A stretch of 64,000 nt of DNA, taken from Desulfobacula sp. GTDB taxonomy: Bacteria > Desulfobacterota > Desulfobacteria > Desulfobacterales > Desulfobacteraceae. The stretch's first letter is position 1. Each line of letters opens with the position of its first letter. The notes under the pieces are model-generated. The model was not told the origin of the DNA. It made no database searches and saw nothing but the letters and a program-made list of their open reading frames with translations. Shown here in pieces: positions 3,062 to 33,441 of the stretch. The stretch lies in contig NZ_JAQYWD010000010.1 of the NCBI RefSeq assembly GCF_030145145.1, positions 62,001 to 126,000 on the forward strand, in the 5' to 3' direction. A program made the position numbers and the translations under genes.

Positions 3062-3667
3062 ATGCATTGGGGAATGGTAATAGACTTAAAGTCATGTATC
3101 GGATGTAATTCGTGCGTTCTTGCCTGCAAGGCTGGAAATGGAACACCTAAGGGTATTTTCTGGAATAAAATTCTTGAAAGGGAAACAGGAAAATACCCAA
3201 CAGCAATACGCCAATTCTGGTCTATGCGTTGCATGCAATGTGAAAATCCCGCTTGTATGGAGGCCTGTCCTACAGGGGCAACATATCAGCGTGAAGACGG
3301 AATCGTCGTGATTGATGCGGAAAAATGTGTGGGATGTAAAGCTTGCATGCTTGCATGCCCCTATGATGCCCGCTCAATTTGGGAGGAAAGAATCCCTTAT
3401 TTCAAAGAAGGTGAAACGCCCTATGAAAAGGTGGTCTACAAAGAGCATGTGGTAGGGGTGGTACAGAAATGTGATTTTTGTTCCGATAGACTCGATCGGC
3501 AACTCGAGCCGCGTTGTGTTGAGACTTGCCCTACTGGAACTCTGATTTTTGGAGATCTTGATGACCCCATGAGCGATGTGTCAAAAGCGCTGGGCCATAG
3601 ACGTCTCGCGTTCCGGCTGCATGAAGAGCTGGGAACATCCCCATCAATTTATTACCTCGGATATTAG
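3062..3667 (+). CDS. 4Fe-4S ferredoxin-type subunit of a Mo oxidoreductase
   Basis: This is a 201-residue electron-transfer subunit of the PsrB/NrfC/DmsB type. Sixteen cysteines form four cluster motifs: C12-C22, C57-C69, C89-C99 and C137-C156, the last with the spread-out C-x2-C-x11-C-x3-C pattern typical of this family. It would pass electrons between the molybdopterin subunit encoded at 4609 and the NrfD-like membrane subunit encoded next. There is no signal peptide. GGAGAG lies just before the ATG. It is the first gene of the first module, behind operator copy B. Confidence 0.92.
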   Translation: MHWGMVIDLKSCIGCNSCVLACKAGNGTPKGIFWNKILERETGKYPTAIRQFWSMRCMQCENPACMEACPTGATYQREDGIVVIDAEKCVGCKACMLACPYDARSIWEERIPYFKEGETPYEKVVYKEHVVGVVQKCDFCSDRLDRQLEPRCVETCPTGTLIFGDLDDPMSDVSKALGHRRLAFRLHEELGTSPSIYYLGY

Positions 3668-3682
3668 TTTAAGGAGAAATAT

Positions 3683-4567
3683 ATGAAAACCAAGGAGTTC
3701 ATCATAGGTACAAGATCCCAGCAAGAGTGGGGCTGGTTATTGATTCTTGATCTGTTTTTCAATGGAACCGGTGCTGGCTTGTTCCTGATAGCCCTGATGC
3801 TGGGGTCTTTGAAACATATGCTGGCAGGTGTGGCATTAGTTTTTCTGGCGACCATATTTCTATTCATTGAGCTTTCCAAACCGGCAAATGTCTGGCGAAT
3901 TGTTTTAAAACCTGGAAGGTCATGGATATCAAGAGGTGCCATTGGCATTTTTATTTTCTTTGCTGCAAGCTTCCTTTACATGGCAGTTTTATCAATGCAG
4001 GGCAATGGGTCGGCAATTGATGGAACAATAACATTTGGTTCTAACCATGCGTGGCAGATGTTCATGGGTGTAATTGCGGGATGCGCTGCCGTATATGTAG
4101 CCGTTTATCATGGGTTTTTACTGGCCAGCATGAAGTCTGTACCCCTCTGGAGCAATAGGGTTCTTCCCGCCCTTTTCCTGGTGTATTCCCTTTTGGGTGG
4201 ATTGGGTGTTTTGATGGTGTTTCCTTTTGCATTGGAACAGCAGGCACTGCTTTTTTCATTTTTCGCCAAAATATGGGTTGGTATAATGGTGTTTGGTTTG
4301 CTGATGATGCTTAGTTTTAGTTCAATAAAAACAATTACAGGGAAAGTGGGATCTCTTGATTCAGCACCAAAAAATTCTCTGCCGGTCGGTCATATCGCGC
4401 TTATACTGGCTACATCCATTTTTATCCCAATAATCAGTATGCTTTACTTCCAACAGGTGGGGGGATATTTGATTTTATTTCCGCTATCCGGATTGTCGCT
4501 CCTCTTTGGGGCTTTTTTGCTCAGATACAGCATTATTAAACTTGCTGTGCAAAGGTCTGCTGTTTAA
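3683..4567 (+). CDS. NrfD/PsrC-like membrane subunit
   Basis: This 294-residue integral membrane protein has about eight hydrophobic helices and the N-terminal pattern of NrfD/PsrC proteins (EWGWLLILDLFFNGTGAG, then a helix ending FIELSKPANVWRI). Members exchange electrons with the menaquinone pool. AAGGAGAAAT precedes the ATG and the gene is 15 bases after the Fe-S subunit gene. With its neighbours it forms a three-part complex of the polysulfide reductase type. Because neither partner has an export signal, the soluble part should face the cytoplasm. Confidence 0.9.
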   Translation: MKTKEFIIGTRSQQEWGWLLILDLFFNGTGAGLFLIALMLGSLKHMLAGVALVFLATIFLFIELSKPANVWRIVLKPGRSWISRGAIGIFIFFAASFLYMAVLSMQGNGSAIDGTITFGSNHAWQMFMGVIAGCAAVYVAVYHGFLLASMKSVPLWSNRVLPALFLVYSLLGGLGVLMVFPFALEQQALLFSFFAKIWVGIMVFGLLMMLSFSSIKTITGKVGSLDSAPKNSLPVGHIALILATSIFIPIISMLYFQQVGGYLILFPLSGLSLLFGAFLLRYSIIKLAVQRSAV

Positions 4568-4608
4568 TTGGAAATAACATTCAATAAGGTTAAGGATTTA
4601 ATAATACG

Positions 4609-7179
4609 ATGAAAGATATGAATAAGAAAGAGGACGTTTGGATTCACACTTCTTGCGATCAATGCCTTGGAGAGTGCGGGATTATGGTACGCCGCGTTGA
4701 CGGTATTGTCAGGGAGATAAAGGGCGACCCAGAATGTCCCAACAGTAATGGTAAAATATGCGGCAAAGGTCAATCAGCAATTATGCGTCTCTATGATCCA
4801 AATCGGGTTTTACAGCCGATGAAGCGCACCAATCCAAAGAAAGGGCTTGGAATTGATCCTGGCTGGGAAGTTATATCATGGGAGGAAGCCCTGGAAACGC
4901 TGACAAAAAAACTGGTTGAAGTTAGAAAAAAAGATCCGAGGAAACTGGTCTTTTCAACTTTTGATACTTATGCTTTGTGTCACTGGCTTCCATCATGGAC
5001 CCAGGCCTTTGGAACACCCAACATCTGGATCGTCTATTTTTGCGGGCAATATCTACATTCTTCCATGTATATCACAAATGGTACATTTCATTGTGATTTT
5101 GATGCCAAATACTGCAAGTATCTCCTTTTGGTCGGAAATCAATCCGGCTTTGGCGCAGGTCTTGGTCCGAATATAAGTGTTCAGGCTGTAGCCGAGGCTA
5201 GAAAAAAAGGAATGAAAGTCGTTGTGATTGACCCTGTCTGTAATCAGGCCGGTTCAAAAGCCGATGAATGGGTGCCGGTTCTACCGGGTACAGACGCGGC
5301 CCTTATGCTTTCCATGGCCAATGTCATGGTCAATGAGTTAAAGGTTTATGATATTGATTTTATGAAAAAATACACCAATGCGCCTTACCTTGTTCAAAAA
5401 GACGGGACCTACCTGAGAATGAACGAAAAACCCCTGATGTGGGATCCGGTGGACGTTATGGCAAAGCCTTATGATGCTGATTTCAAGGATTATGCTCTTG
5501 AGGGAACCTATGATGTAGATGGGGTTTCGACGACTACCGCATTTGATATTTTAAAAGCCCATTTGAAACAGTATACACCGGAAAGTGTTACAAAAATAAC
5601 CACAGTCTCGCCCGCGACAATTCGCAGAATTACAAAAGAATTCAGCGAGGCTGCGAGTATTGGCACAACGATTACAATTGAAGGAGTAGCCTTTCCTTAC
5701 CGGCCGGTGGCTGTCAATATCTACCGCGGTGCAGGGGCTCATAAACATGGCGTTGCAGTTGCGCTTGCGACTCAACTTTTGAACCAATTGGCCGGGGCAC
5801 TCTATGTACCCGGAAGCCACAGGGGAATCAATCCGGTCGGTCCTCGTCCGAACAGGGACGCACCTCCTGGATTTGATATCATGCCGAATTGGGGATGGAA
5901 CTTTGATAGCTATGAAGGATTGGTCAGTCCCACTCCAGGACTCCCCAGGGCCCCGAATTACTATCACTATGTGGCCAAACGTCCCGAGACGGTCATGCTC
6001 AGAGAACTTTTTCCCCTTTCGAGTACTAGGGCGGCTCACGCAGTATTAACCAGTGCAAATCCGGAAAAATATAAGCTCGACTATCAACCCGAAGTGTTGA
6101 TAAATTGTCGGCGAAATCCATTTGCAGGAGGGTTTGATTACAAAGTGACAGCGGAGGCTTTTAAAGCTTATAAGTATATCGCTGTCTTTGCCACTCACTT
6201 TGATAAACTTTCTGATTTCGCGGATCTGTTATTGCCGGAAGCAGTGGGAATGGAAAAGCTTGAGGCCTTTCCCAATCTCCTCAATTGGGGGCACAACGGA
6301 CAAAGCGCTCAATGGTACTGGGGGATCAAACAACCGGTTATCGATAAACCCATGGGAGAAGCACGTGACTGGAGAGATGTCATGATGGAGGTTGCCGACC
6401 GAATGGGAATTTTGGAATATGTATATGATAAATTCAACACATCTAACTCTATTTCACACCATTTTTCAGACCGCTATAAGCTGGATGTGAAAAAAAAGTA
6501 CACCCCTGAAGAGCTTTGCGACAGGCGTTTTAAAAGTCAGTTCGGTGAAGAAAAAGGATTGGAATGGTTTAAAAAGAACGGTTATTTAAAATGGACAAGA
6601 AATATAGATGAACAATTCCCGCTACCATGGCTGAAGGTACGATTTCCCATCTATCACGAACTTTATGTAAGAGCCGGCCGGGATATGGAAAAACTGGTCA
6701 AAGAAATAGACCTTAAAGACTGGGATCTTGAAGATTATGTACCGCTTCCCACATGGAAACCTTGTGATTCCTATGATCGCAGGGGAACCCATGACCTCAT
6801 TGCCATAAATTTCAGGGTTCCCACCCATGCCCAGTCTCATACTGCCAATAATGCCTGGCTAAATGAAGTTGCTGAACTCAACCCCTATACACAAAAGATA
6901 ATGATTTCCCCCGAAGCCGCAGCCAACAATGGCATTGAAGATGGGGACACGATATGGGTTGAATCCAAAGTGGATCGCGCCCAGGGGATTGTCAAGGTTA
7001 CCGAATGCATCCATCCGGAAGTGGTGGGCATATCCAGCCATTTCGGGACGATTGCCAAAGGCAAACCCATCGCGTATGGGAAAGGCGTTCAGTTCAACCG
7101 GCTTTTGCCCGGCGATATGGACCCGGTCAGTACCGGGGTTGACGCGTGTGTCAGGGTCAAAATTTATAAAGCTGGCTGA
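4609..7179 (+). CDS. Molybdopterin oxidoreductase, catalytic subunit (DMSO reductase family)
   Basis: This is an 856-residue bis-MGD enzyme. The N-terminal 4Fe-4S site is C16-x2-C19-x3-C23-x27-C51. The molybdopterin core follows, and the C-terminal dinucleotide-binding domain runs from about 740 to the end (HTANNAWLNEVAELNPYTQK region). After GTPNIW, Cys145 stands where thiolate-ligated members place their metal ligand. There is no twin-arginine signal, which is unusual beside an NrfD anchor. Substrate cannot be read from sequence; the neighbours (UbiD, CoA ligase, AOR) point to an aromatic, cyclic or other organic compound rather than an inorganic acceptor. Resorcinol hydroxylase and pyrogallol transhydroxylase are cytoplasmic relatives, but they lack this N-terminal cluster and NrfD partner. 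Tungsten is possible in place of molybdenum. Confidence 0.88.
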   Translation: MKDMNKKEDVWIHTSCDQCLGECGIMVRRVDGIVREIKGDPECPNSNGKICGKGQSAIMRLYDPNRVLQPMKRTNPKKGLGIDPGWEVISWEEALETLTKKLVEVRKKDPRKLVFSTFDTYALCHWLPSWTQAFGTPNIWIVYFCGQYLHSSMYITNGTFHCDFDAKYCKYLLLVGNQSGFGAGLGPNISVQAVAEARKKGMKVVVIDPVCNQAGSKADEWVPVLPGTDAALMLSMANVMVNELKVYDIDFMKKYTNAPYLVQKDGTYLRMNEKPLMWDPVDVMAKPYDADFKDYALEGTYDVDGVSTTTAFDILKAHLKQYTPESVTKITTVSPATIRRITKEFSEAASIGTTITIEGVAFPYRPVAVNIYRGAGAHKHGVAVALATQLLNQLAGALYVPGSHRGINPVGPRPNRDAPPGFDIMPNWGWNFDSYEGLVSPTPGLPRAPNYYHYVAKRPETVMLRELFPLSSTRAAHAVLTSANPEKYKLDYQPEVLINCRRNPFAGGFDYKVTAEAFKAYKYIAVFATHFDKLSDFADLLLPEAVGMEKLEAFPNLLNWGHNGQSAQWYWGIKQPVIDKPMGEARDWRDVMMEVADRMGILEYVYDKFNTSNSISHHFSDRYKLDVKKKYTPEELCDRRFKSQFGEEKGLEWFKKNGYLKWTRNIDEQFPLPWLKVRFPIYHELYVRAGRDMEKLVKEIDLKDWDLEDYVPLPTWKPCDSYDRRGTHDLIAINFRVPTHAQSHTANNAWLNEVAELNPYTQKIMISPEAAANNGIEDGDTIWVESKVDRAQGIVKVTECIHPEVVGISSHFGTIAKGKPIAYGKGVQFNRLLPGDMDPVSTGVDACVRVKIYKAG

Positions 7180-7250
7180 AACAATTCCTTAACCTGATGA
7201 TTATGGACGGAAGTGATATTTTTTAAGCACCATCCAGAAAGGAGAACGAT

Positions 7251-8738
7251 ATGGAGCATCATATCAGCAAAGTTAGAGACTGTGTAAATTTTGCAAAAGA
7301 GACTGGAAAATTTATCAACATCAGCAAGGCTGTAGATCCGCATCTTGAAATGGCTTCAATTATCAAGGCGTTTGACGGCGGCCCACAGATAACATTTGAC
7401 AATATTAAAGGGTATCCCGGTTCAAAGGTTCTGGCCAACCTCATGGGTAACCGGGATATGATAGCCGGATATTTCAACACGACAAAGGAAAAACTTTCAG
7501 AGCGGTTGATCCGCTGCATGCTGGATCCCATCAACCCTGTCGTTGAAAAAAATCCTCCCTGTCAGGGAAATGTCATTGATAAGGATATTGATGTACTCGG
7601 GACCCTGCCGGTTCTCACCCATACTTCAATTGATCTGGGTCCGGTTATTACAAGCGGTATCATAATGGTGAAATATCCTGAGGAGATGGCCAAAGAGGCG
7701 TTTGCCTTCAACCTTTCCTATCATCGCCTCAATCCCAGCAGAGGGCCAGACTGGCTCACGCTTGCCTCTTTGTACAACCGGCATTTTCTGGATGTGCTTC
7801 ATTATCATAAAAAACGGGGGGAAGAATATCCCATCACCATAAATATCGGATTAGGACCCGGCCTCAACGTCATGGCTGCGGGCGGAACCTTGCCCCAGAT
7901 AAGGACCCGGGGACTTGATGATCTAAGGGTTGCCGGCGGACTGCAGGGTGAAGCAGTAAGAATCTGCAAGGCCAGGACTGTGGATGCCTATTGTATCGCA
8001 GATGCCGAAATCGTACTCGAAGGAAAGATTCTTTACGGAGAACGTGTTTTCGAATATGACAAAGAAGCCCACACTTCGAAAAATCCACCCTATTATTTCC
8101 CGGAATTCATGGGTTATGAAGGTGTTGCAGAAAAAGCCTTCAAGTTCCAGGTCACAGGGATAACCTATAAGAATTCCCCATACTATTTGTCTCAAATGGG
8201 TGATTCCATAGAAAGTTCAAACCTGGGTGCCATTGTTTCCGAAGCCAGTATCTACAATGCCTGTAAGAACCATGCGCCAGACAGTTTTATAAACTGCCAT
8301 ATTCCTGATCCCATGAAAGGTATTCTGGGTGCGGTTATTCAATGCAAAACCAATCATATTATGGAAACCGGCATCTCCCAGGGATTGATTAATGCAGCAT
8401 TTGGTGCGATCCGAAATTTGAAAATGGTCGTAGCCGTTGATGAAGACGTGAATATTTATGATCCTGAAGATGTCCTATGGGCCATAAATCTTCGTACAAA
8501 ACCGGATCGCGATATCAATATCATCAAAAAGGCGGGGCTGGGAGAACTCTTCGAAACCAGATGGTCGGTCGATACAACGGTTCCGTTTACAAACAAATGG
8601 CGGGCCAGGAGACCCGTATATCAAAAAATTAACCTGGGGGATTTTGTTGAAAAAACAGATGTTGAAAAGGGATTATCCTTTTTAAGCGATTCAGCAAGAC
8701 GTAATACGTTGGCAAATATTATTAAACCTTTAACTTGA
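7251..8738 (+). CDS. UbiD family (prenylated FMN) decarboxylase
   Basis: This 495-residue protein spans the whole UbiD fold. The Arg in SYHRL (R159) and the acidic residues in DAEIVLEG (E253, E257) match the conserved Arg-Glu-Glu set, PEFMGY matches the usual EFTGY, and the C-terminal VAVDEDVNIYDPEDVLWA is the family signature. UbiD enzymes reversibly decarboxylate aromatic or alpha,beta-unsaturated acids with prenylated FMN. No UbiX flavin prenyltransferase gene is in the window, so the cofactor must be made elsewhere. AAAGGAGAA precedes the ATG. Downstream acyl-CoA synthetase genes suggest that either the decarboxylated or the carboxylated product is activated to a CoA ester. Confidence 0.93.
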   Translation: MEHHISKVRDCVNFAKETGKFINISKAVDPHLEMASIIKAFDGGPQITFDNIKGYPGSKVLANLMGNRDMIAGYFNTTKEKLSERLIRCMLDPINPVVEKNPPCQGNVIDKDIDVLGTLPVLTHTSIDLGPVITSGIIMVKYPEEMAKEAFAFNLSYHRLNPSRGPDWLTLASLYNRHFLDVLHYHKKRGEEYPITINIGLGPGLNVMAAGGTLPQIRTRGLDDLRVAGGLQGEAVRICKARTVDAYCIADAEIVLEGKILYGERVFEYDKEAHTSKNPPYYFPEFMGYEGVAEKAFKFQVTGITYKNSPYYLSQMGDSIESSNLGAIVSEASIYNACKNHAPDSFINCHIPDPMKGILGAVIQCKTNHIMETGISQGLINAAFGAIRNLKMVVAVDEDVNIYDPEDVLWAINLRTKPDRDINIIKKAGLGELFETRWSVDTTVPFTNKWRARRPVYQKINLGDFVEKTDVEKGLSFLSDSARRNTLANIIKPLT

Positions 8739-8762
8739 ATAAATCATTCAAGGACATGAAAC

Positions 8763-10190
8763 ATGAAACATGAAAATAATTTGTTAAACAACTTTTTTTA
8801 TCCAAAAAGTGTGGCAATTGTCGGGGCTTCGGCAGACCCCAAAAAATCGGGAAATGCTCTTGTAAAAAATTACCTGGATTATGGTTTCAAAGGAGAGATT
8901 TATCCCATTAATCCCAAAGCCGATGAAATCCTGGGACTGAAGGCATATTCTTCAATCCGAACCGTACTTAGAGATATCGATCTGGTGGTTTTCGCGGTTC
9001 CTGCCAAGGTTGTCGTAAAGGTAATCGAAGATTGCGCTTCCAAGAACGTAAAGGCGGTTGTGGTTCATTCTTTCGGTTTTGCTGAAAGTGGTCCTGAAGG
9101 TAAGGGATACCAGGACAGGCTTGTCGCTGTTGCACGGGAATCTAACATTAAAGTGGTGGGACCAAACTGCCAGGGTGTGATGTGTGTGGATTCAAAACTG
9201 CCTTGGTCAAGGAGAAGCACCTTCCCGGAACAGGCAGGACACGTATCTGTTATTTCCCAGTCCGGTGGCGGTGGCGGATCATTTGTCAATCTGGCCGATG
9301 TCAGGGGCATAAAGTTCAGTAAGATAGTTACCATAGGCAATGAATGTGATGCCTCGGTCATGGATTTTATTCAATATTTTGGCGATGACCCGCAGACAAG
9401 AACACTATTTCTTTTTCTGGAAGGATTCAGGGACGGAGAAAGGATATTGGACGTTGTCAGACCTGCCTCTGTCAATATGCCCATTATCGCCTACAAGACA
9501 GGCCGCACAGCGGTTGGGGCAAAGGCTGCAGCCTCTCATACCGGATCTTTTGCCGGATCCATTGAGGTATATGACGGTGTATTCAAGCAGACCGGTATTA
9601 TTCGCGCAGAAAGCCTTGATGATGGACTCGATTATCTCGTTGCCTTTGAGAATTTATGGTTTGGCGATAAGCAGATACAAGGATATCGAGTGGGAATCGT
9701 TAGTGGGCCCGGAGGACCGGGAGTGGCAGCAGCCGATGCCATGGTGGAATCAGGTCTGTCGGTCCCCCCGATTGCTGAGGCCAGCAAGCAGCGCTTAAAA
9801 GAGGCGATTCCAGGTGCCACCGCGGCAAATCCAATGGATATGGGAGATTTTTCCCTAGTTGGCAAGCTAAAGGAGGAAGGGCCTTATTCCAGCATGTCCA
9901 GAATCATGTCCGAAGACCAGAATATTGACATACTGGTCGTCATCGGTCCAGGGGAGTTCAACCCCGAGGGGTTCAGGGATGAACTTTATAATATCAAGCG
10001 GTTTTGTGAAAAACCCTTGATTGTAATCTGGCCATCGGCCGGGGGAAACGTTGAAACATGCAAAAAAGAACTCAGGGAAGCCGACTTTGCACTTTTTGAC
10101 ACCCAGGAGAGGGGTGCCAGGGCTCTTGGAGCAGTAAAAAGATATGATTCATTACGTTCCCGAATAAAAAGGGAGGTTGAAGGTGCCTGA
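8763..10190 (+). CDS. ADP-forming acyl-CoA synthetase, alpha subunit
   Basis: This 475-residue protein has an N-terminal Rossmann CoA-binding domain (NFFYPKSVAIVGASADPKKS) and two succinyl-CoA-synthetase-like ligase domains. The phosphorylated active-site His lies in AAASHTGSFAG, in the usual place. Together with the ATP-grasp protein encoded next it forms an Acd-type enzyme, reversibly making acyl-CoA from acid, CoA and ATP with ADP as product. In catabolism it can either activate an acid cheaply or harvest ATP from a CoA ester. The split alpha/beta arrangement resembles archaeal Acd rather than the fused bacterial form. Confidence 0.9.
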   Translation: MKHENNLLNNFFYPKSVAIVGASADPKKSGNALVKNYLDYGFKGEIYPINPKADEILGLKAYSSIRTVLRDIDLVVFAVPAKVVVKVIEDCASKNVKAVVVHSFGFAESGPEGKGYQDRLVAVARESNIKVVGPNCQGVMCVDSKLPWSRRSTFPEQAGHVSVISQSGGGGGSFVNLADVRGIKFSKIVTIGNECDASVMDFIQYFGDDPQTRTLFLFLEGFRDGERILDVVRPASVNMPIIAYKTGRTAVGAKAAASHTGSFAGSIEVYDGVFKQTGIIRAESLDDGLDYLVAFENLWFGDKQIQGYRVGIVSGPGGPGVAAADAMVESGLSVPPIAEASKQRLKEAIPGATAANPMDMGDFSLVGKLKEEGPYSSMSRIMSEDQNIDILVVIGPGEFNPEGFRDELYNIKRFCEKPLIVIWPSAGGNVETCKKELREADFALFDTQERGARALGAVKRYDSLRSRIKREVEGA

Positions 10191-10893
10191 TATGGAAATG
10201 ATAAATGCGCTTATGAATAAAGTTATAAAATCAGATAGAGAGATATTATATCCCTCGGAATCAGATGCCGTGCTTGACTATTACAAAATCCCGCAGCCCA
10301 AGTGGATGACAACGGGGAATAATGTTGAACAGGCCGTGCAGGCAGCTGAGCAGATCGGTTTTCCGATCGCCCTTAAACTGATTTCTCCTGATATACTGCA
10401 CAAATCAGATGCGGGGTGTGTAAAGCTGGACCTGAATAATTCTCCGGAAGTTGAACACGCGTGTCATGACATTCTGGAAAAGGCTGCCCATGCCCATAAA
10501 ACCCCCAGGATTGAAGGGTTTTTAATTCAAGAGATGGTTAAAGAAGGGCATGAGGTCATTATCGGGCTGGCCCAGGATGTCACTTTCGGTATGATAATTG
10601 TGTTTGGACTGGGGGGTATTTTTGTAGAAATTCTCAAAGATGTGGCCATCAGAAAAGTGCCGATTACACCTGCGGATGCAATGGACATGATCGAAGAGAT
10701 CAAGGGTTATAAAATTTTGAAAGGCGCCCGGGGAAAAGTGGTTGCCAATATTGATCTGTTAAAAGATATGCTGTTGAAAGTTTCCCAAATGGGAATGGAA
10801 CAAAAACAGATAACGGAGCTGGACTTTAATCCGGTTTTTGTGGATTCTCACCGGGCCCTTGTGGCTGATTCAAGAATCATTTTAAAGGGCTGA
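10183..10893 (+). CDS. ADP-forming acyl-CoA synthetase, beta subunit (ATP-grasp)
   Basis: About 236 residues form the ATP-grasp half of the synthetase. Landmarks are GFPIALKLISPDILHKSDAG, with the second phosphohistidine site, EGFLIQEMV, FGLGGIFVEILKDVAIRKVP, and the end ELDFNPVFV. GGGAGG at 10171-10176 favours the GTG at 10183; an ATG at 10192 and a TTG at 10177 are alternatives. The gene overlaps the alpha subunit gene by a few bases, so translation is probably coupled. It ends 2 bases before the AOR gene. Confidence 0.9.
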   Translation: MPDMEMINALMNKVIKSDREILYPSESDAVLDYYKIPQPKWMTTGNNVEQAVQAAEQIGFPIALKLISPDILHKSDAGCVKLDLNNSPEVEHACHDILEKAAHAHKTPRIEGFLIQEMVKEGHEVIIGLAQDVTFGMIIVFGLGGIFVEILKDVAIRKVPITPADAMDMIEEIKGYKILKGARGKVVANIDLLKDMLLKVSQMGMEQKQITELDFNPVFVDSHRALVADSRIILKG

Positions 10894-10895
10894 TA

Positions 10896-12713: not shown

Positions 12714-13035
12714 AAATGGGGATCCATTTTAGCGAAAACCGAATCTTCTTATTTCGGGTAATAAAGGTGCAATTATATCCATTTTTTTGTTGACATGAAG
12801 ATATAAATCATATTAATTTGTCTGACAAATGGACATATTAATTTTTTGCCTCGTTCTTCGAAACATCAGCTAAAGCAAAAGGCATGAGGATTTAAATGGA
12901 ACTCAAAATGAAGTTAGAAATAGGGTTTGTCTATCAGCCCTTAGGTATAATAATCGCTCAGATATTGGGGTAAAATTTTAAACTTTCGGCATGGTGAGAA
13001 AGCTTTAGCCGGTTTACTTGAGAGGAGAAATGGCA
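12714..13035. other. Intergenic region carrying operator cassette C
   Basis: It is almost filled by the 165-bp repeat that also occurs at 23888-24053. Past the operator a conserved leader block (GAAACATCAGCTAAAGCAAA and onward to about 12905) is shared with the 24-kb copy and partly with the 0.6-kb copy. No coding sequence is recognised. Confidence 0.6.
12741..12905 (+). promoter_or_regulatory. Island promoter/operator cassette, copy C (165-bp repeat)
   Basis: TTGACA lies at 12790-12795 and ATTAAT at 12812-12817 (16-bp spacer), followed by the perfect palindrome at 12816-12830 with arms ATTTGTC and GACAAAT. Its core TTGTCTGACAA fits the FCD-regulator form TnGTnnnACnA at every fixed position. 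GGACATATT follows. By hand alignment the whole block is about 89% identical to 23888-24053 (19 differences including one gap). It should drive the second module and respond to the GntR protein encoded at 1164. Confidence 0.75.
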
Positions 13036-13356
13036 ATGTATGTAAAAATGGTTTTTCTAAAACTAAAAGAGAATAATATTATCAAATTCCAAGACACATA
13101 TGTAAAGGAGGTCATACCTTTGGTTACTTCTCATAAGGGCAACAGGTTCACTCATTTACTCCTGGATAGAGATAATGACAATGAAGCGATTTCAATTACA
13201 GCCTGGGATAAAAAAAAAGATTTTGAGGCGTATTTAAATAGCGGTGATTTTAAGAAAACTTCAGATAAATATTCAAGCATGTATATAGAGCCTCCAATTG
13301 AAAAATCATACGAAGTGGTTGCAAGCTCTGATCCATTAATTATTCGAATATTTTGA
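13036..13356 (+). CDS. Small ABM-like (dimeric alpha/beta barrel) protein
   Basis: The protein is about 106 residues with the pattern of the antibiotic-biosynthesis-monooxygenase fold: VKMVFLKLKENN as first strand, a helix, RFTHLLLDRDNDNEAISITAWDKKKDFEAYL as the central strand pair and helix, and a last strand ending SYEVVAS. GAGGAG at 13022-13027 suits the ATG at 13036 (8-base spacer); an ATG at 13030 is also possible. Fold members range from cofactor-free oxygenases to heme-degrading and accessory proteins. In an anaerobe an oxygenase role is unlikely, so a structural or substrate-binding part in the flavoprotein module is my guess. It is the first gene behind operator copy C. Confidence 0.65.
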   Translation: MYVKMVFLKLKENNIIKFQDTYVKEVIPLVTSHKGNRFTHLLLDRDNDNEAISITAWDKKKDFEAYLNSGDFKKTSDKYSSMYIEPPIEKSYEVVASSDPLIIRIF

Positions 13357-13512
13357 GAATTTTTAAATTAAACTGTTCCATGAAAAAGACTAACAGTATC
13401 TAATACACAAAATAAAATATTTGTATATAAATTGGTGAAAAATAGACATGAGATATTAACAACATGAAAATCAAACGATTCGCCAGACAAAAAATTTTAA
13501 AGGAGAAAAAAA

Positions 13513-15156
13513 ATGGCAGATGAAAAATTTGACGTGGTCGTGATTGGAGGAGGGTCAAAAGCATTGGTCACAGCCCTTTACCTGCAGGCCTATGGCGGGA
13601 TGAATGTATGCTTATTTGAGAGGATGCATGAACTTGGTGGCGCGTGGTGTTCATTGGAAAGGCTTGCTCCTGGTTTTATCGGTGATACACATTCCAGCAC
13701 CATGTCCGATTGGTATTTTTTGCCACTTTTGTATGATTTTCCTAAGTTTGAAGAATATGGTGGGAAATTCTTTGGATACAAAGCCGGGTTGTCTCAGGTT
13801 ACAAAGGGGAAAGAGGAGGATTCATTACTAATTTACTCACATTTTGATGATCCCAATGGAGAAAAAAGCGCTAAAGAAATTGCTAGATACTCCGAAAGAG
13901 ACGCAGAAACTTTTTTGAAATTTGACGATATGCATTTTAGGGAAGGAAGAAGAGAAGCATTACTTGAAACTATATTTTCAATCGCACCCACACCCGATGA
14001 ATTAGACCCATCTCAAAAGTGGATGAAGGAATACATGAAGCGCAAAGATGCCATTTTAGATCCTCAATTGGCGATGATGTGTATGATAGACAGCGGTAGG
14101 GCGTTGTTTGAAAATCAAGAATACAGAGCTTTGATGACCAGTGTGATTGCGAGGATGGACATTAGCCCTATGAAACCAATGACTGGGCTAGGGTGGTTTA
14201 TTGCTCAAGGTAGAAGAGAAAATAATCGGGTTGTAGGCGGGACGCATAACATAGCCCATGCTGTTATTAGACTCTTTGTAGAAGCTGGAGGCAAATTCTA
14301 CTCTCGGAAAGAAGTTGATAAAATTACAGTTGAGAATAAAACAGCAACGGGTATCCGCTTGACTGATGGTACTGAAATTGATGCAAAAATAGTGGTGAGT
14401 GGCCAAGATCCTTACCAATTGGCCAACAGGTTTCTTGGAAAAGATCATCTGGACCGAAAAGTATGGATGAAGGTTAATGCGCTTGATCGTTCGGAAAACA
14501 TGATTAATTGGTATACTTTTGCACTTCATGAAATTCCGCATTATACGGCAGCTGCACGAAACCCGGACATAGATACGGCACAATTTGTACACATTGCCAA
14601 TGGCGATGATAAAGAGATGGCTAAGGAGGCCTGCTTAAGGTATGCCGGCATTGAGCCCCCTTGTCCTCAGGTGCGTGTATGCCCAACCAATTCAGATATT
14701 GATCCGACCAGGCAACCGGAGGGGAAAGCTACTCTTTTAGTAGAAACACTGACGTTACCAAAAACAGCAAGAACTGAAAAAGAATGGCTTGATTACAAGA
14801 TGAAGATGGCAAAACATATGATAAATGAAATTAACATCGCTGCACCCAATATTACCTGGGACAGCGTTATCGGGGTGGATACAAATTGTCCTTATGATAT
14901 TGGGAATAGACATCTTAACATGGCGACAGGTAATCAGCTGGTGGTTGATCCGAATCCTGGGACAAGTGGAAAATTTGCGCCAATTATCGAATGGGCACAG
15001 CATAGAATACCAGGAATAAAAAATTTGTATGGAACAGGTTCTGCATGGTCGTCATTTGCTTCGGCATATTGTGGTCAAGGGTATAAATGTTACAAAGCGA
15101 TTGCGGAAGACTTTAATTTGAGAAAACCATGGGAAGAAAAAGGACGTCCTTGGTAG
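13513..15156 (+). CDS. Phytoene-desaturase-like FAD oxidoreductase 1
   Basis: This 547-residue flavoprotein belongs to the CrtI/amine-oxidase superfamily. The N-terminal Rossmann motif is FDVVVIGGGSKALVTALYL with an acidic strand end (CLFERMHELGGAWCS), and the C-terminal FAD motif includes IPGIKNLYGTGSAW. AAAGGAG precedes the ATG. CrtI relatives remove hydrogen from isoprenoid chains. The closest functional parallel I know is limonene dehydrogenase CtmAB of Castellaniella defragrans, a pair of such flavoproteins that hydroxylates limonene without oxygen. A second flavoprotein gene follows after 51 bases, as in that system. The substrate here is unproven. Confidence 0.85.
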   Translation: MADEKFDVVVIGGGSKALVTALYLQAYGGMNVCLFERMHELGGAWCSLERLAPGFIGDTHSSTMSDWYFLPLLYDFPKFEEYGGKFFGYKAGLSQVTKGKEEDSLLIYSHFDDPNGEKSAKEIARYSERDAETFLKFDDMHFREGRREALLETIFSIAPTPDELDPSQKWMKEYMKRKDAILDPQLAMMCMIDSGRALFENQEYRALMTSVIARMDISPMKPMTGLGWFIAQGRRENNRVVGGTHNIAHAVIRLFVEAGGKFYSRKEVDKITVENKTATGIRLTDGTEIDAKIVVSGQDPYQLANRFLGKDHLDRKVWMKVNALDRSENMINWYTFALHEIPHYTAAARNPDIDTAQFVHIANGDDKEMAKEACLRYAGIEPPCPQVRVCPTNSDIDPTRQPEGKATLLVETLTLPKTARTEKEWLDYKMKMAKHMINEINIAAPNITWDSVIGVDTNCPYDIGNRHLNMATGNQLVVDPNPGTSGKFAPIIEWAQHRIPGIKNLYGTGSAWSSFASAYCGQGYKCYKAIAEDFNLRKPWEEKGRPW

Positions 15157-15207
15157 GCTGATATAGCTGTGAAAAAATATAAATAAAGAAAATTAAAGGA
15201 GAACAAA

Positions 15208-16887
15208 ATGATTCCTATTCGACCTCATATGACAACGTACCCGGAATTCGTGGATGAATCCGTAAAAAACAATAAAAAATACAATTACGATGTGGTGATT
15301 ATCGGTGCCGGGCCAAATGGTCTATCGGCTGCTGCTTATTTGGCAAAAACCGGACTAAGAGTTATTGTTCTTGAAAAACGATGCGAAGCGGGCGGTGGTT
15401 TGGCCACAGAAGAAGTTACCGTTGCGCCACATGCCCATAACACACATTCGATATACCATCTTATGGTAGATTATGCACCGGTCTACAAGGATTTTAATTT
15501 ATCAGAAAAATATGGGTTAAAATATGTACACCCCGAGTTACAGTTTGCGCTTCCTCTTTCAAATGGAAAGTCAGTGAGAATTTACACGGATGTGGATAGA
15601 ACGTGTGAATCTTTTGCCCAATTTTCAAAAAAGGATGCTGAAACTTATCGTGAAATTTTTTATACTTTTGAAAAATATATAGATAAATTTCTTGCACCTG
15701 CTACATATGTACTGCCAATGGCCGCACCGCTTCAAGCCGCAAAATTAGATGCACACGAGTTGGGAAGAGAGTTGAACGAGTTTTCCTGGAAAAGTCCAAA
15801 AACATTGGTTTGTGATCTATTTGAAAATACGCATATAAAAGCATTGATGCTATATGTCGCAGCCCATTGGGGCTTGGAGCCGGATGTAGATGGTATTGGG
15901 TATCTTGCTATGTTGTATATGGGTATGGCCAACAAATATAAATTATGTGTGGGCGGTTCTCACATGCTGGCACAAAATATTCAAAAGGCTGTGGTTGAAA
16001 ATGGTGGCGTTATAAGAACCAGTCAAGTGATCAAACGTTTTATTATAGAGGACGGAACTGCTAAGGGCGTTGAATTGATCGATGGAACCATTATTGAGGC
16101 AAATAAAGCGGTCATAAGCACAATAGACCCTATACAAACTTTTAATAAGTATACAGGGAAAGAACATCTAAATGAGGATTTTATTGAAAAAATAGACAAT
16201 TTTAGATGGGATCATTGGAGTTTGTTAACAGTCCATCTACTAATGAATGATGCACCTGTTTTTAAAGATCCGGAAATCAATAATGCATTTGTGTATGCTC
16301 CTGTTGGAATAGAAACATATGAAGAGTTGTTGGAAATGTGGGAAGGTGTAAGTGGTGGTAACGTTTGGACTAAAGGATTTAATTGTTGTTTTCCGACTGT
16401 CCACGATTCCTTGCAATCCTTTGGGGGGAAACATACGGCAGTGATTTCACAAATAGCGCCATATGATTTAAAGGAAGGAACAGACAAATATTACAATTTC
16501 GAATATAAGCAGGAACTAGCCGCAAGGTGTATCGAAACGCTTGCAAAGTATACGACGAATATTAATAGTTCAAATGTTCTCTGGACAGCCACGCATACCC
16601 CTCTAGACATCGCAAATAAATTTCCGAATATGGTAAAAGGGTCCATAAAAGTTGGCGCTTATGAGCCACTTCAAATGGGATTTTTAAGACCTAATGAAGA
16701 TTGTTCAGATCATCGGACACCAATAAAAAATCTTTATCTTGGTGGCGCGAGTACACATTCTGGTGGTTTAATCACTTTTGGACCAGGGTATCAGGTTGCC
16801 AATGTAGTGGCTGAAGATTGTGGGGTGGAAAAGTGGTGGTCTGAATTGGAAAATGTAATAAAAGCAAAAGATGAAGGATTATTGTAA
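15208..16887 (+). CDS. Phytoene-desaturase-like FAD oxidoreductase 2
   Basis: This 559-residue flavoprotein is a distant paralogue of the one just upstream. The FAD-binding motif [20 protein letters not shown] runs into [13 protein letters not shown], and the C-terminal motif is [20 protein letters not shown] followed by [24 protein letters not shown] precedes the ATG. There is no signal peptide or membrane helix, so it should be cytoplasmic. Pairing with the previous gene suggests a heteromeric dehydrogenase or hydroxylase. Its stop codon overlaps the start of the next small gene (TAATG). Confidence 0.87.
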
Positions 16888-17162
16888 TGTTAATGAGATC
16901 AACAGGGTTGGGGCGGACCGAACTAGAAGGTCACGTCACCGGTATAACTGTTAAGGGTGATTATGTCATAATTGCCATGAAAACAACAGAGCCGGTGAAG
17001 TGGCAGGTAAGAATTGCTGCTGACTTGCCGGACCTTTTATCTATGGCAAGATTGCTGGTATTCTCCCTTAAAGGGATAAAATTTTTTATAGTTCAATTCT
17101 TTAAATCGTTGCTCCTGCCGTTTAAGAAAAATAAGGGACGTGTAAAGCCTGAGGACTTTTGA
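16887..17162 (+). CDS. Small protein of unknown function in the flavoprotein operon
   Basis: I do not recognise this 91-residue protein. It starts inside the stop codon of the preceding flavoprotein gene, so translation is probably coupled, which argues it is real. Residues 10-50 look like a small beta-rich domain (ELEGHVTGITVKGDYVIIAM). Residues 50-80 are hydrophobic with many Phe and Leu and end in a basic tail. This could be one membrane-attached helix that anchors the flavoproteins, or a subunit contact. The function is open. Confidence 0.65.
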   Translation: MLMRSTGLGRTELEGHVTGITVKGDYVIIAMKTTEPVKWQVRIAADLPDLLSMARLLVFSLKGIKFFIVQFFKSLLLPFKKNKGRVKPEDF

Positions 17163-17255
17163 GTTGCCTTGGTTAAAGCTTTACCACTAACGGAATGGAT
17201 AAATATTCGACTTTCGTCGTTATTTGTTATTGTATTTAAGAATATGGAGAGACTG

Positions 17256-18011
17256 ATGAGACTTAAAGATAAAGTATGTATAATAACAGGTGCCGGGCAA
17301 GGCATCGGAAAATATTATGCAAAAAAGCTTGCAGGAAAAGGCGCCAAAATAGTTGTTGCTGAATATAATGAAGAAAGTGGTCAGGCTGCAGCCAATGAAA
17401 TCACTTCAAACGGTAACGAGGCTTGTTTTATACAGACGGATGTTTCCAATGAGAATAGCACGATCAACATGGCAGAAAAGACCGTTCAAAAATATGGCAG
17501 AATTGATGTGTTAATCAATAATGCTGCCATTTTTGCGAGTTTGGGGTTCAAATCGTATGACCAGATTCCTGTCGATGAGTGGGATCGAGTAATGGCGGTC
17601 AATCTAAAGGGCTTATGGTTTTGTTGCAAAGCAGTAATTCCGTATATGAAGGAACAAAAAAAAGGGAAAATAATCAACACCTCCTCCTCCGCTTGGGATT
17701 TGGGTAGGGCACAGTATCTCCACTATGTGACTTCCAAAGCCGGTGTTGTCGGCTTTACAAGAGGCCTAGCAAAAGAAGTTGGGGATTGGGATATCAATGT
17801 GAATTGTGTTTCATATGCAGGTGTTATTACGGAGATTGAGCGAGAAAGCTATAATACTGATGCCCAACAATGGGTAATGAACCAACAGTGTATCAAGCGA
17901 CCGGGGGCTCCAAATGAATTGGTGGGAACCATTATTTTTTTGGCATCAGATGATAGTGATTTTATAAGCGGACAAACCATACATCCAAATGGTGGATTTT
18001 ATTTTCATTAA
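17256..18011 (+). CDS. Short-chain dehydrogenase/reductase
   Basis: This is a classical SDR of about 251 residues. The cofactor motif is TGAGQGIG, NNAAIFA lies in the central strand, SSSAW and YVTSK give the Ser-Tyr-Lys catalytic set, and the C-terminus has SGQTIHPNGG. The reading frame is open to 17169, but the family start corresponds to the ATG at 17256, with GGAGAG just before it; an ATG at 17244 is an alternative. Cytoplasmic SDRs in such operons oxidise alcohols or hydroxyacyl-CoAs with NAD(P). Between hydroxylating-type flavoproteins and an AOR, an alcohol-to-aldehyde step would fit. Confidence 0.87.
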   Translation: MRLKDKVCIITGAGQGIGKYYAKKLAGKGAKIVVAEYNEESGQAAANEITSNGNEACFIQTDVSNENSTINMAEKTVQKYGRIDVLINNAAIFASLGFKSYDQIPVDEWDRVMAVNLKGLWFCCKAVIPYMKEQKKGKIINTSSSAWDLGRAQYLHYVTSKAGVVGFTRGLAKEVGDWDINVNCVSYAGVITEIERESYNTDAQQWVMNQQCIKRPGAPNELVGTIIFLASDDSDFISGQTIHPNGGFYFH

Positions 18012-18312
18012 AATCGAATGGGTTTTGCTGATCAAAATCCTAAGCACGGTATAGGAGATGAAAATGGAAGGAACTTTTACAACCGATAGGTGTTGCATTA
18101 ACTCCACACATTTCAAGGAGGCAGGCCCTAAGGAAAATTCACACTATATTTTATGGATGTGTTGTTAAAAGCGGCTTAAAAAACGGAGGACATAATTTAA
18201 AATTTTTTTAACGTTAGGTTGACCCCAAAGGTATATGAGAAATTATGGAAAATGGGAAAACAGCCTATGAGACATGATTATTTTTAATTGACTACATCAG
18301 GAGTGAATATTC
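18012..18312. other. Intergenic region between SDR and AOR2
   Basis: These 301 bases hold one possible micro-gene (18064-18168) and an AT-rich stretch. No -35/-10 pair of the island type is present, so AOR2 is probably read from upstream. Confidence 0.5.
18064..18168 (+). CDS. Possible 34-residue cysteine-containing micro-ORF
   Basis: ATAGGAGATGAAA precedes an ATG with good spacing. The 34-residue product contains two Cys pairs, TDRCCIN and the C-terminal WMCC, and no recognisable domain. It could be a small metal-binding or regulatory peptide, or the stump of a lost gene. Support is the ribosome binding site and location only. Confidence 0.3.
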   Translation: MEGTFTTDRCCINSTHFKEAGPKENSHYILWMCC

Positions 18313-20157
18313 ATGGGAATAAAAAAATTAAGAGGATATACAGGAAAACTTTTAAGGGTCGACCTAACGGATGAAAGTTCAAGGATTGAATATATAGGAG
18401 AAGAAATATATCGAAAGTATATAGGCGGAGCCGGACTTGGGATAAAAATACTTTATGATGAAGTGCCACCGAAAATATCGTGGTCCGATCCTGGAAACAG
18501 ACTTGTTTTTGCAACAGGGCCTTTAAATGGAACAAGCATCCCCGGCTCCGGGACAATATGCGCAGTGAGCAAAGGTTGTTTGACAAACGGGGGGGCATCC
18601 AGTCAAGCCAACGGTTTTTTTGGGGCTTACCTCAAATTGTCTGGACTGGATGTGGTGGTCATACAAGGTGCAGCATCAAATTGGAAATATCTATACATTC
18701 ATGATGGGAAGGTTGAAATAAAAAATGCTGACCATTTGCTTGGTAAGAACACTGATGAAACAGAACAGGTGATCAAAGATGAATTTGGTAAAAAAGATAG
18801 TAACATTAGTGTATACAGCATTGGGCCGGCTGGAGAAAATCTTGTAAAATACGCCATGATATCTGGGGACCGCGGGCATGTTTTGGCACATAATGGATTG
18901 GGCGCCATAGCCGGTTCCAAAAAATTAAAAGCGATTGCAGTGGAACGGGGAAAAGCGAAAGTATTGATAAAGGATCCAACCGGTCTCGCAGCATTGGCTA
19001 AACAAATTAGCAAGCAGGCAAAAGAACATCCTATTTATGGACAAATACATAAATACGGCACATCTGTGCTGTGGCCTATGCTTGCAAAAAACGGTTTGCT
19101 ACCGGTTAAGAATTTGACTACGAATATTTTTCCCCATCCTGAAAGATTTTCTAGAGAATATTATAAAGACAAGTATGAAATGAAGCGAATTAGGTGTTGG
19201 GCCTGCCCGCTTCATCATGTGCAGCATATAAAAATAAAAAAAGGGGATATTGATAAAGTAGGGATGAAAGATCCTGAATACGAGTGTTCAGCTGCTTGGA
19301 GTTCATTAATCGGAAACGAAGATTTTGAATCCTCGGCAATATTAAGTGATCTTGCTGACCGCCTTGGTCTTGATTCTAACGAAGCCGGGTGGACTATGGC
19401 ACTGACGATCGAATGTTATGAGAAAGGGATCTTGAAAAAAAAGGATACTGACGGGATACCAATGAACTGGGGTAATGTGGAAGCTGTTAAGGAAATGTTG
19501 AAAAAGATCGCAAATCGAGATGGCTTTGGAGACATAATGGCTGAAGGCGTCATGCATGCGGCCAAGAAAATTGGTGGAGAAGCCCCTTCTTTGGGTGTTT
19601 ATTTGAATAGAGGCCATAGCCCCCGGACTCATGATGCAAGGGCCCGGTGGGGAGATATGCTCGATTATGCAACAAGCGGGGTAGGAACTAGTGAAAGTAA
19701 TTCTGTATCGATGGAGGAACCATTTTTGCCCCAAAATGTCGCTTTATCGGTTAAAAAAGGTAAAATAAGAGAATTTGTAGATTCTCTTGTTGTGTGCAAC
19801 ATTGCAACAATGACATATGCTGGAACTGACATAGTGACTTTGATTGAGGCGCTCAACTTGGTAACAGGATGGGGATATAGTTTAAATGATGCTATTGAGA
19901 TGAGCGAGAGGGTTGCAAACCTTTTCCGGGTTTTCAATATCCGACATGGTCACAAACCAGAGCATGAATGCCCATCAGTTCGTTACAGTTCTGTGCCAGT
20001 GAACGGCCCCATGAAAGGAATAAATATTAGAGAACATTGGGAAACCATGATTCAGGAATATTATAAGCTCATGGGATGGGATCTGAAATCTGGAAATCCC
20101 TTACTAGAAACACTTGAACGTTTAGAACTCGAATTTACAATCACCGATATTTATTAA
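18313..20157 (+). CDS. Aldehyde:ferredoxin oxidoreductase family enzyme (AOR2)
   Basis: This 614-residue paralogue of AOR1 is clearly similar along its whole length but has a different N-terminus (GIKKLRGYTGKLLRVDLTD, closer to canonical AORs). Tungstopterin motifs GGAGLGIKILYD and TGPLNGTSIPGSG are present. The cluster site again has His in place of the third Cys (C295-x2-C298-x3-H302) with Cys495 as the last ligand. Codon use is much more AT-rich than in AOR1, so the two copies probably arrived separately rather than by a recent local duplication. It most likely handles the aldehyde or acid made by the flavoprotein/SDR set upstream. Confidence 0.88.
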   Translation: MGIKKLRGYTGKLLRVDLTDESSRIEYIGEEIYRKYIGGAGLGIKILYDEVPPKISWSDPGNRLVFATGPLNGTSIPGSGTICAVSKGCLTNGGASSQANGFFGAYLKLSGLDVVVIQGAASNWKYLYIHDGKVEIKNADHLLGKNTDETEQVIKDEFGKKDSNISVYSIGPAGENLVKYAMISGDRGHVLAHNGLGAIAGSKKLKAIAVERGKAKVLIKDPTGLAALAKQISKQAKEHPIYGQIHKYGTSVLWPMLAKNGLLPVKNLTTNIFPHPERFSREYYKDKYEMKRIRCWACPLHHVQHIKIKKGDIDKVGMKDPEYECSAAWSSLIGNEDFESSAILSDLADRLGLDSNEAGWTMALTIECYEKGILKKKDTDGIPMNWGNVEAVKEMLKKIANRDGFGDIMAEGVMHAAKKIGGEAPSLGVYLNRGHSPRTHDARARWGDMLDYATSGVGTSESNSVSMEEPFLPQNVALSVKKGKIREFVDSLVVCNIATMTYAGTDIVTLIEALNLVTGWGYSLNDAIEMSERVANLFRVFNIRHGHKPEHECPSVRYSSVPVNGPMKGINIREHWETMIQEYYKLMGWDLKSGNPLLETLERLELEFTITDIY

Positions 20158-20392
20158 CAGCAAGATACGAAACCGTTCCTTTAAAGGAAGCGTGAACAAA
20201 GGTAAGCATAAAGAGGATCATCTGATTTGGCTTAAAATCGTATGTGGTATTAATTGGGAAGAAATAATATATAGAAATATATTCCACGATAAAGAATTTG
20301 AAATTGAAAGGAGGTGAATAAGACCACCGGTAAGGTAGCAATGCTCTATAACTTTAAGCGGATTAACCTTAATGACAAGGAGATGTACCAAA

Positions 20393-21412: not shown

Positions 21413-21710
21413 AAAAGGGGTTTATTTAAAAAAAGCAAAATGTTTATAGAATACGGCAGGTAGCTAATTTAAGGCGCTGTGTCAAAATCGTCCATGACAG
21501 AGTTGGGCAATCATAGGTATGAATAGCAAGTGCAAATAATGTATATTTTTAGTGGCCGATTTATTTATGTCTTTTTGCCTAAAGCAAACTAAAGTTTCTT
21601 TAGGCAAACGCTGATAAGATTCAGAAAATCAGGGGTACCGTGCGTTGGTTCTGTTTGCAGTCCTATTATTATTTTAACAGTATTTATATAATACTACTCA
21701 GGAGGGTAAA
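21413..21710. other. Gap between DctP and the TRAP membrane genes
   Basis: These 298 bases carry one perfect inverted repeat (21574-21608) and otherwise nothing recognisable. Such a gap is unusual inside a TRAP operon and may allow different expression of the binding protein and the permease. Confidence 0.5.
21574..21608. repeat. 11-bp perfect inverted repeat
   Basis: Arms TTTGCCTAAAG (21574-21584) and CTTTAGGCAAA (21598-21608) flank a 13-base centre that is itself nearly palindromic (AAACTAAAGTTT). No U-tract follows on either strand, so it is more like an operator or mRNA-processing hairpin than a terminator. Confidence 0.7.
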
Positions 21711-21914
21711 ATGAAGAAATTTTTTTTCATTAGCCTGTTAATAGTGAGTCTAATCTTGTTTCCACTGATAATCTTGGCGGAAAGCGATATGGGCCAGGCC
21801 ATTGTTAAAAATAAAGCTATCAACATCGTCATTTGCGGCAGTATGAAAGTCCTGCCTCCATTTATTGAAAATGCTGATTTTAATAAGGACAAGGTACGCT
21901 ATGAATTTCATTAA
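21711..21914 (+). CDS. Small exported protein of unknown function before DctQ
   Basis: AGGAGGG stands just before the ATG, one of the best ribosome binding sites in the island. The 67-residue product begins with a clear signal peptide (KKFFFISLLIVSLILFPLIILAES) and leaves only about 40 mature residues with no known domain. It overlaps the DctQ start by 14 bases, suggesting translational coupling. It may be the stump of an older binding-protein gene whose signal peptide and start were kept, or a genuine small periplasmic or membrane protein. Confidence 0.5.
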   Translation: MKKFFFISLLIVSLILFPLIILAESDMGQAIVKNKAINIVICGSMKVLPPFIENADFNKDKVRYEFH

Positions 21915-22389: not shown

Positions 22390-22390
22390 A

Positions 22391-25795: not shown

Positions 25796-25797
25796 TA

Positions 25798-33432: not shown

Positions 33433-33441
33433 GGAATTACC

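Follow-up and report, generated by a model that had tools for sequence, protein, structure and literature searches.

A three-operator gene cluster of Desulfobacula sp. with a candidate pathway for oxygen-free oxidation

Desulfobacula sp. carries a cluster of putative oxidation genes centred on two adjacent CrtI-like flavoproteins. The window analysed here is a stretch of 64,000 nucleotides (contig NZ_JAQYWD010000010.1, positions 62,001 to 126,000), and coordinates are given within it. An earlier note on this DNA had listed, at 3062-20157, the CrtI-like pair, an ABM-fold protein, a small protein, a short-chain dehydrogenase/reductase (SDR), two aldehyde:ferredoxin oxidoreductases (AORs), a split acyl-CoA synthetase, a UbiD protein and a membrane molybdenum (Mo) complex. 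Each of these genes is present at its place on the + strand, as confirmed by open reading frames (ORFs) and Pfam matches. The cluster and its immediate surroundings are as follows.

1164-1886, +: GntR family regulator with FCD ligand domain (PF00392 and PF07729 over cut-off)
2908-2945, +: promoter/operator copy 1 (38-base pattern)
3062-3667, +: 4Fe-4S electron-transfer subunit (PF13247 and others; 64% identical to a protein in locus L155)
3683-4567, +: NrfD-type membrane subunit (PF03916; hydropathy)
4609-7179, +: Mo-bisMGD oxidoreductase (PF00384/PF01568/PF04879)
7251-8738, +: UbiD-family (de)carboxylase (PF01977; PDB search)
8763-10190, +: ADP-forming acyl-CoA synthetase, alpha (PF13607, PF13380)
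10177-10893, +: ADP-forming acyl-CoA synthetase, beta (PF13549)
10896-12713, +: AOR1 (PF01314, PF02730)
12790-12827, +: promoter/operator copy 2 (38-base pattern)
13030-13356, +: ABM-fold small protein (PF03992, E 2.8e-9; ORF listed from 13018, start more likely 13030)
13513-15156, +: flavoprotein A of the pair (His in GFIGDTHS; AlphaFold2 model)
15208-16887, +: flavoprotein B of the pair (His in PHAHNTHS; B clade)
16887-17162, +: 91-residue small protein (sm91 kind), member of a pair-associated, unnamed family (matches neither Pfam nor NCBIfam)
17169-18011, +: SDR, presumed alcohol dehydrogenase (PF13561; start probably later)
18313-20157, +: AOR2 (PF01314, PF02730)
20372-23695, +: TRAP transporter 1, DctP, DctQ and DctM (DctP by PF03480; DctQ and DctM named by eye from sequence)
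23938-23975, +: promoter/operator copy 3 (38-base pattern)
24144-27108, +: TRAP transporter 2 (named by eye from sequence)

Shared operators

The pattern TTGACA-N4-GATANANNNCANNTTAATNTGTCNGACA has exactly three matches in the 5,658,388-base genome. All are in the window, and each stands before a transcription unit; the same pattern read backwards, used as a control, has no match in the whole genome. The 38-base pattern was derived from these same three sites, and the telling part is that there is no fourth copy; a narrower first pattern gave one match. A 29-base block ending in TTGACA recurs, with one mismatch, near 2884 and 12766, and the palindrome TGTCnGACA is also common to these two upstream regions. 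The operator core, GT-N3-AC, agrees with what we take to be the FadR-type operator consensus. The GntR/FCD protein is presumed to bind the three operators and to regulate the three units, judging by its position and the palindrome.

The first unit encodes the Mo complex, UbiD, the synthetase and AOR1. The second encodes the ABM protein, the flavoproteins, the SDR, AOR2 and the first TRAP transporter. The third encodes the second TRAP transporter (from 24144) and lies beyond the part of the window that the earlier note had covered; the two DctM proteins are 39% identical. The earlier note spoke of one apparent regulon, and with three 38-base operators here, none elsewhere in the genome and none in the reversed control, this is more than chance. 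The gene set and regulon are real; the pathway interpretation, drawn from sequence, may serve as a good working hypothesis. The window can be seen as a compact unit, with one regulator, three operators, one putative heterodimer and a proposed product chain.

The flavoprotein pair and its relatives

Two members of the two-flavin dehydrogenase family have been characterised, both from nitrate-reducing bacteria: the limonene dehydrogenase CtmAB and the sterol Delta24-desaturase (available passages of PMC4109377 and PMC11061730). Both consist of two adjacent, diverged CrtI-fold subunits. A and B are likewise adjacent and diverged (27% identical), the fold being modelled for A only. The covalent-flavin consensus of the Delta24-desaturase is G-F-L/R-X-N/S-T/L-H-A and is also present in CtmAB, according to the part of PMC11061730 at hand. 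The flavin His of this consensus aligns in both A (GFIGDTHS) and B (PHAHNTHS), and the flanking letters depart from it in part. It is present in 106 of 107 B rows of the alignment, with one gap, and in 89 of the 119 other rows (21 Cys, 5 Trp, 4 other or gap). The 56-row A clade that holds window A has 36 His and 20 Cys at this position.

The earlier note would have been undermined had the flavoproteins fallen among true carotenoid desaturases; hidden Markov model cut-offs and a tree with one control place them elsewhere. NCBIfam scores are far below cut-off, both for CrtO (96 for A and 214 for B, against 1000) and for crtI_fam (54 and 78, against 238). In a 43-row quick tree, 32 family rows split from 11 others (SH-aLRT 97); the latter include the one annotated CrtI that served as carotenoid control (Thermus, locus L183). 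Window A is sister to the A protein of locus L051 (93), and window B is nearest to L051 B. A has no match among PDB sequences (phmmer, E 0.001). B has 156 weak matches at E 0.1; the 60 listed are mostly to the N-terminal cofactor stretch and include CrtI 4dgk at 27 bits. The best PDB match of the A model (AlphaFold2, 23-row alignment, pLDDT 87.6) is carotenoid desaturase 4rep, with a TM score of 0.73 by query and 0.81 by target.

A and B form mirrored clades in a 226-row FastTree, with window A on a long branch. Their distances correlate over 36 pairs (r 0.77, 0 of 999 permutations), to which common host descent may contribute. By motif and tree, A and B would belong to the CtmAB/Delta24-desaturase family. 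The link to CtmAB rests on the published motif and a match in strain NaphS2: the best match of CtmB and CtmA in 2014 was a NaphS2 protein (available passages of PMC4109377), which is not matched by accession to our NaphS2 locus L069.

A scan of genome contigs gave at least 545 flavoprotein relatives, of which the best 80 were kept, in 78 loci; further relatives were added. Neither Castellaniella nor Sterolibacterium is among the best 80 of these. A plasmid search gave 67 records, and the 15 listed are all at or below 29.1%. Neighbours were counted in 41 loci with a clade-1 B subunit and in 40 loci of its sister clade (clade 2; 46 rows), with the remaining B groups of 7 and 9 rows uncounted. 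They were taken on the same strand within 8 kb, and partners within 1.5 kb. Many loci are cut by contig ends; 4 kb is available on both sides in only 17 of the 41 and 18 of the 40. By label, the clade-1 rows belong to Thermodesulfobacteriota (14), Chloroflexota (14), Myxococcota (6), Actinomycetota (2), Bacillota (1) and Pseudomonadota (1), and 6 carry no label.

Clade-1 loci contain the partner in 38 cases, the small protein in 24, an AOR in 14, an SDR in 13, phenylphosphate-synthase-like (Pps-like) genes in 7, UbiD in 3, and the ABM protein and a Mo gene in 2 each. Sister-clade loci contain the partner (36), the small protein (7), a Mo gene (5), an AOR (2) and Pps-like genes (1), with no SDR and no UbiD. 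The two clades differ in AOR (Fisher, 0.0015) and SDR (8e-5). AOR and SDR occur together in 7 of the 41 clade-1 loci (L038, L055, L068, L072, L075, L079, L081). L075 holds the pair, SDR, AOR and UbiD, and L076 holds two pairs, UbiD and AOR pieces. The present analysis finds the family paired in Thermodesulfobacteriota and Chloroflexota, among other records, with SDR and AOR as frequent neighbours.

Some relatives keep different company. L038, L072, L081 and L083 combine the pair with a Pps-like PEP-utiliser/PPDK_N pair; L072 also has the ABM protein, an HD-domain protein and an AOR. In L056, B lies where the contig cuts the locus and is accompanied by both Pps-like genes, ABM and AOR. An A-subunit subtype has Cys in place of the flavin His in 11 of 11 rows and includes the Pps-associated A proteins (L072 11971-21478, also L038, L043, L058, L081). 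Such Cys-type subunits are often near the Pps-like pair and, in L072, also near the HD protein and ABM. L043 has a single A-type protein with SDR, AOR, electron-transfer flavoprotein (ETF) genes and a CCG iron-sulfur protein; the ETF/CCG set is a plausible electron path to the membrane.

Companion enzymes

The SDR belongs to an ortholog group with 12 matches of 42-56% (at least 194 bits) in six genomes, which were chosen because they hold pairs. The next match has 166 bits and 33%; two short partial matches of 41-43% score no more than about 105 bits. Five SDRs of the group were not fetched via a flavoprotein: L166 and L168 adjoin an AOR, L167 has a flavoprotein A and a fragment of B nearby, L165 (NaphS2) lies with UbiD and two type III CoA-transferases, and L169 lies with a Mo gene. 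Two lower-scoring SDRs of the host's own genome (L170, L171) have neither pair nor AOR beside them. The group tracks clusters of pairs and AORs. In NaphS2 (L069, L165), hydantoinase-type genes come after an SDR; one of them, in L165, has an acetone-carboxylase gamma domain. They stand near a flavoprotein pair in L069 and near a UbiD in L165.

AOR1 and AOR2 are 65% identical, and both have AFOR_N and AFOR_C domains over cut-off, as expected of aldehyde:ferredoxin oxidoreductases. Two AORs within 8 kb are notable, but not decisive alone, because the host genome has 19 AFOR_N matches. The nearest outside relatives of AOR1 (six genomes, 42-45%) have no UbiD, synthetase or flavoprotein alongside, one of their contigs being only 3.2 kb. 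The synthetase has all the domains of an ADP-forming acyl-CoA synthetase (CoA-binding, ligase and ATP-grasp); its alpha subunit scores 392.7 bits against the acetate-specific TIGR02717, under the cut-off of 567. The 91-residue protein has invariant S5, G7, L8, G9, P36 and W39 in a 15-row alignment; its model (pLDDT 75) has no PDB match at E < 0.001. Relatives of the ABM protein (42% and 48%) adjoin flavoproteins in L056 and L072.

A six-row alignment of the Mo protein shows four conserved Cys for a cluster and an invariant Cys145, a candidate Mo ligand; no Tat signal was seen by eye at the N-terminus. A paralogue in the host genome follows three 2-oxoacid:ferredoxin oxidoreductase (Kor) subunits in L162, where an operon KorABC-FeS-Mo-NrfD spans 4009-11029. 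When 16 other Mo loci were searched with the Kor subunits, three (L143-L145) matched KorC at 84-92% and two more matched KorB at 41-42%; the other 11 had no Kor match, and 14 of the 16 carry short flanks only. Locus L155 has relatives of the Mo (54%) and iron-sulfur (FeS; 64%) proteins together with TctA, several UbiD and an AMP-forming ligase; there is no flavoprotein pair on that 22-kb contig. Because the paralogue and some relatives adjoin 2-oxoacid oxidoreductase genes, the Mo-FeS-NrfD proteins may form an electron-transfer complex that serves enzymes reducing ferredoxin; they might instead convert a substrate.

The window UbiD matches solved phthaloyl-CoA decarboxylase (Pcd) best in the PDB (8oz5; 196 bits, about 30% identity by alignment). 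Next are 6h6x (167), presumably HmfF, and 5ny5 (164), a 3,4-dihydroxybenzoate decarboxylase. It thus shares the UbiD family with Pcd and with the enzymes of hydroxyaryl and furan acids, at about 30% identity only. In the portion of PMC8269228 available, 74-85% identity is taken as Pcd. An assignment to Pcd was rejected on this ground, the comparison being with the solved enzyme and named sulfate-reducer Pcds lying outside it. The UbiD beside two type III CoA-transferases in NaphS2 (L165) is 31% identical. At E 1e-55, UbiD relatives were found in six further genomes of 395 in the phylum, all 31-34% identical (at most three candidates scored per genome). Within flanks of about 1.5 kb these six loci have no other window gene family, and one has a second UbiD. 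The genome contains UbiD domains and one UbiX over cut-off, as expected for a UbiD dependent on prenyl-FMN. It also has two genes over cut-off for TIGR03200, which we take to be BamA, the dearomatising hydrolase. Because the genome holds UbiX and two BamA-type genes, an exit towards benzoyl-CoA is possible.

Candidate pathway and alternatives

The reading that we tentatively prefer, at somewhat less than an even chance, is that the regulon serves to take up a carboxylic acid, or a compound yielding one, and to oxidise it without oxygen. We infer each reaction, the order, the substrate and the electron path from the genes. A and B would associate as a heterodimer with a covalently bound flavin in each subunit and would abstract hydride or hydrogen at a C-H bond adjacent to a pi system, after which water would yield an alcohol. 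The SDR would oxidise the alcohol to an aldehyde, and the AORs would oxidise the aldehyde to an acid with ferredoxin. The ADP-forming synthetase would convert the acid to a CoA ester, from which UbiD with prenyl-FMN would remove CO2, possibly towards benzoyl-CoA. The cytoplasmic Mo-FeS-NrfD complex would hand electrons to the quinone pool. The substrates p-cresol, a terpene, a furan and toluate are candidates weighed by reasoning only. The host is probably an anaerobe, judging by its AORs, glycyl radical enzymes and UbiX/BamA-type genes.

The earlier note had proposed this order of C-H oxidation, SDR, AOR, CoA ligase and UbiD, and it is plausible and partly supported, because relatives recur as pairs, often with the small protein, SDR or AOR and rarely with UbiD. 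The recurrence with SDR (13/41), AOR (14/41), both (7/41) and, rarely, UbiD (3/41) bears out the synteny that it had suggested looking for; a phylum-wise control, given below, weakens the statistic. Its statement that the combination is not a described system holds for the open-licence literature, where no description was found; most subscription papers are outside that scope.

The closest parallel is the ctmABCDEFG operon of Castellaniella defragrans, as described in the available passages of PMC4109377. CtmA and CtmB (CDM25290 and CDM25289) are two adjacent CrtI-like subunits, and identity within the pair is 27% in both systems. The hypothetical genes ctmC and ctmD follow ctmB, just as unnamed small genes follow B in the window and in several relatives. 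Oxidation of alcohol and aldehyde follows, as is proposed for the window, which has AORs in place of the geranial dehydrogenase; UbiD, the ADP-forming ligase, the Mo complex and the TRAP transporters are additions of the window. The sterol Delta24-desaturase of Sterolibacterium denitrificans (PMC11061730, available passages) is a heterodimer with covalent FMN in each subunit at the His of the same motif, and it acts beside a double bond. It differs in that it desaturates, by a proposed radical mechanism, and leaves hydroxylation to the Mo enzyme S26DH2; AOR and UbiD are not mentioned in these passages, unlike in the window. Oxygen-free hydroxylation followed by an SDR is common to the proposed pathway and a further known route. 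This is the route of ethylbenzene dehydrogenase, SDR and acetophenone carboxylase, in which the first step is carried out by a Mo enzyme; the hydantoinase-type genes that come after an SDR in NaphS2 (L069, L165) are a further likeness to it.

Several points weigh against the preferred reading. The ctm operon includes a 2Fe-2S ferredoxin, CtmE, and a reductase, CtmF, which are not mentioned for the Delta24-desaturase (passages of PMC4109377 and PMC11061730), and nothing like them is found among the Pfam-scanned regulon genes; the CtmAB-like pairing that the earlier note had named is supported, with the flavin His in both subunits. Passages of PMC12583861 argue that limonene dehydrogenase, which needs an acceptor of positive potential, might fail to function in systems based on sulfate reduction or methanogenesis, and the methanogenic culture studied there did not express three related genes. 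The SDR of NaphS2 L165, the closest one (59% by blastp), stands near neither a pair nor an AOR. Close relatives of the window UbiD did not turn up: of 291 genomes, the host's own was the single one to match at E 1e-80, and the UbiD proteins of L075, L076 and L080 are about 21-25% identical to the window protein. The AORs beside other pairs are mostly about 30-34% identical to those of the window (47% in L055) and so do not form one ortholog group. A phylum-wise control, covering 33 of the 41 and 21 of the 40 loci grouped by record title, gave for Chloroflexi-like records AOR 6/14 against 2/17 (p 0.10) and SDR 2/14 against 0/17 (p 0.20), and for Desulfo/delta-like records AOR 6/19 against 0/4 (p 0.54) and SDR 9/19 against 0/4 (p 0.13). 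As neither enrichment is significant within single phyla, both could reflect the phylum mix. The small protein gave 5/14 against 0/17 (p 0.01) and 14/19 against 1/4 (p 0.10) in the same two groups.

It is also conceivable, if somewhat unlikely, that the pair is a desaturase like the Delta24-desaturase, with water added by the Mo complex or a hydratase and the remaining steps unchanged. The Delta24 enzyme, the second of the two characterised family members, does desaturate (available passages of PMC11061730). In the 43-row tree the window A and B are closest to the pair of L051, downstream of which lie a Mo and an FeS gene; a Mo gene is also present in 5 of 40 clade-2 loci. However, the L051 Mo protein is 24% identical to that of the window, whose wider family goes with 2-oxoacid oxidoreductase genes in some genomes, and the presence of SDR and AOR next to clade-1 pairs agrees with the pair itself producing an alcohol.

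The regulon could instead comprise two independent routes under one regulator: Mo complex, UbiD, synthetase and AOR1 for one acid, and flavoproteins, SDR and AOR2 for another compound, the promoters having been duplicated with the units. The L155 relatives, with no pair on their contig, are consistent with this, as are the 38 of 41 clade-1 loci without UbiD within 8 kb, many of which are cut by contig ends. The close similarity of AOR1 and AOR2, split between the two units, and L075, which unites pair, SDR, AOR and UbiD, make it unlikely. That A and B are carotenoid desaturases or ketolases with unrelated neighbours is very improbable: the fold match to 4rep, the weak CrtO and crtI_fam matches and the 27 bits of B to 4dgk point that way, but the scores are far under cut-off, Thermus CrtI is outside the family clade, and no carotenoid genes were recognised by eye among the window ORFs, no search being aimed at them.

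The preferred reading of oxygen-free oxidation can be widened. Clade-1 pairs might be a general oxygen-independent C-H hydroxylase of strict anaerobes, carried across phyla in a cassette (A, B, small protein, SDR, AOR) and used here for methyl-bearing (hetero)aromatic acids. The methyl group would pass through hydroxymethyl and aldehyde to a second carboxyl, then a CoA ester, and decarboxylation by UbiD would give a benzoyl-CoA type product. This is a long shot; if true, it would be a third oxygen-free way into such compounds, beside fumarate addition and Mo hydroxylases.

Other loci of the window lie downstream of the cluster. A large minus-strand protein at 28032-31721 seems, by eye from sequence, to have calcium-binding-type repeats. 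The region 32011-45505 contains two glycyl radical enzymes (33442-35844 and 42167-44554), which are 53% identical and below the cut-off of every NCBIfam family listed; they are possibly of an unassigned type. They are accompanied by an MmgE/PrpD protein, an activase and TRAP genes. At 57362-62222 there are a corrinoid protein (59309-59941) and a methyltetrahydrofolate:corrinoid methyltransferase-like protein (61368-62222), which suggests demethylation of methylated compounds.

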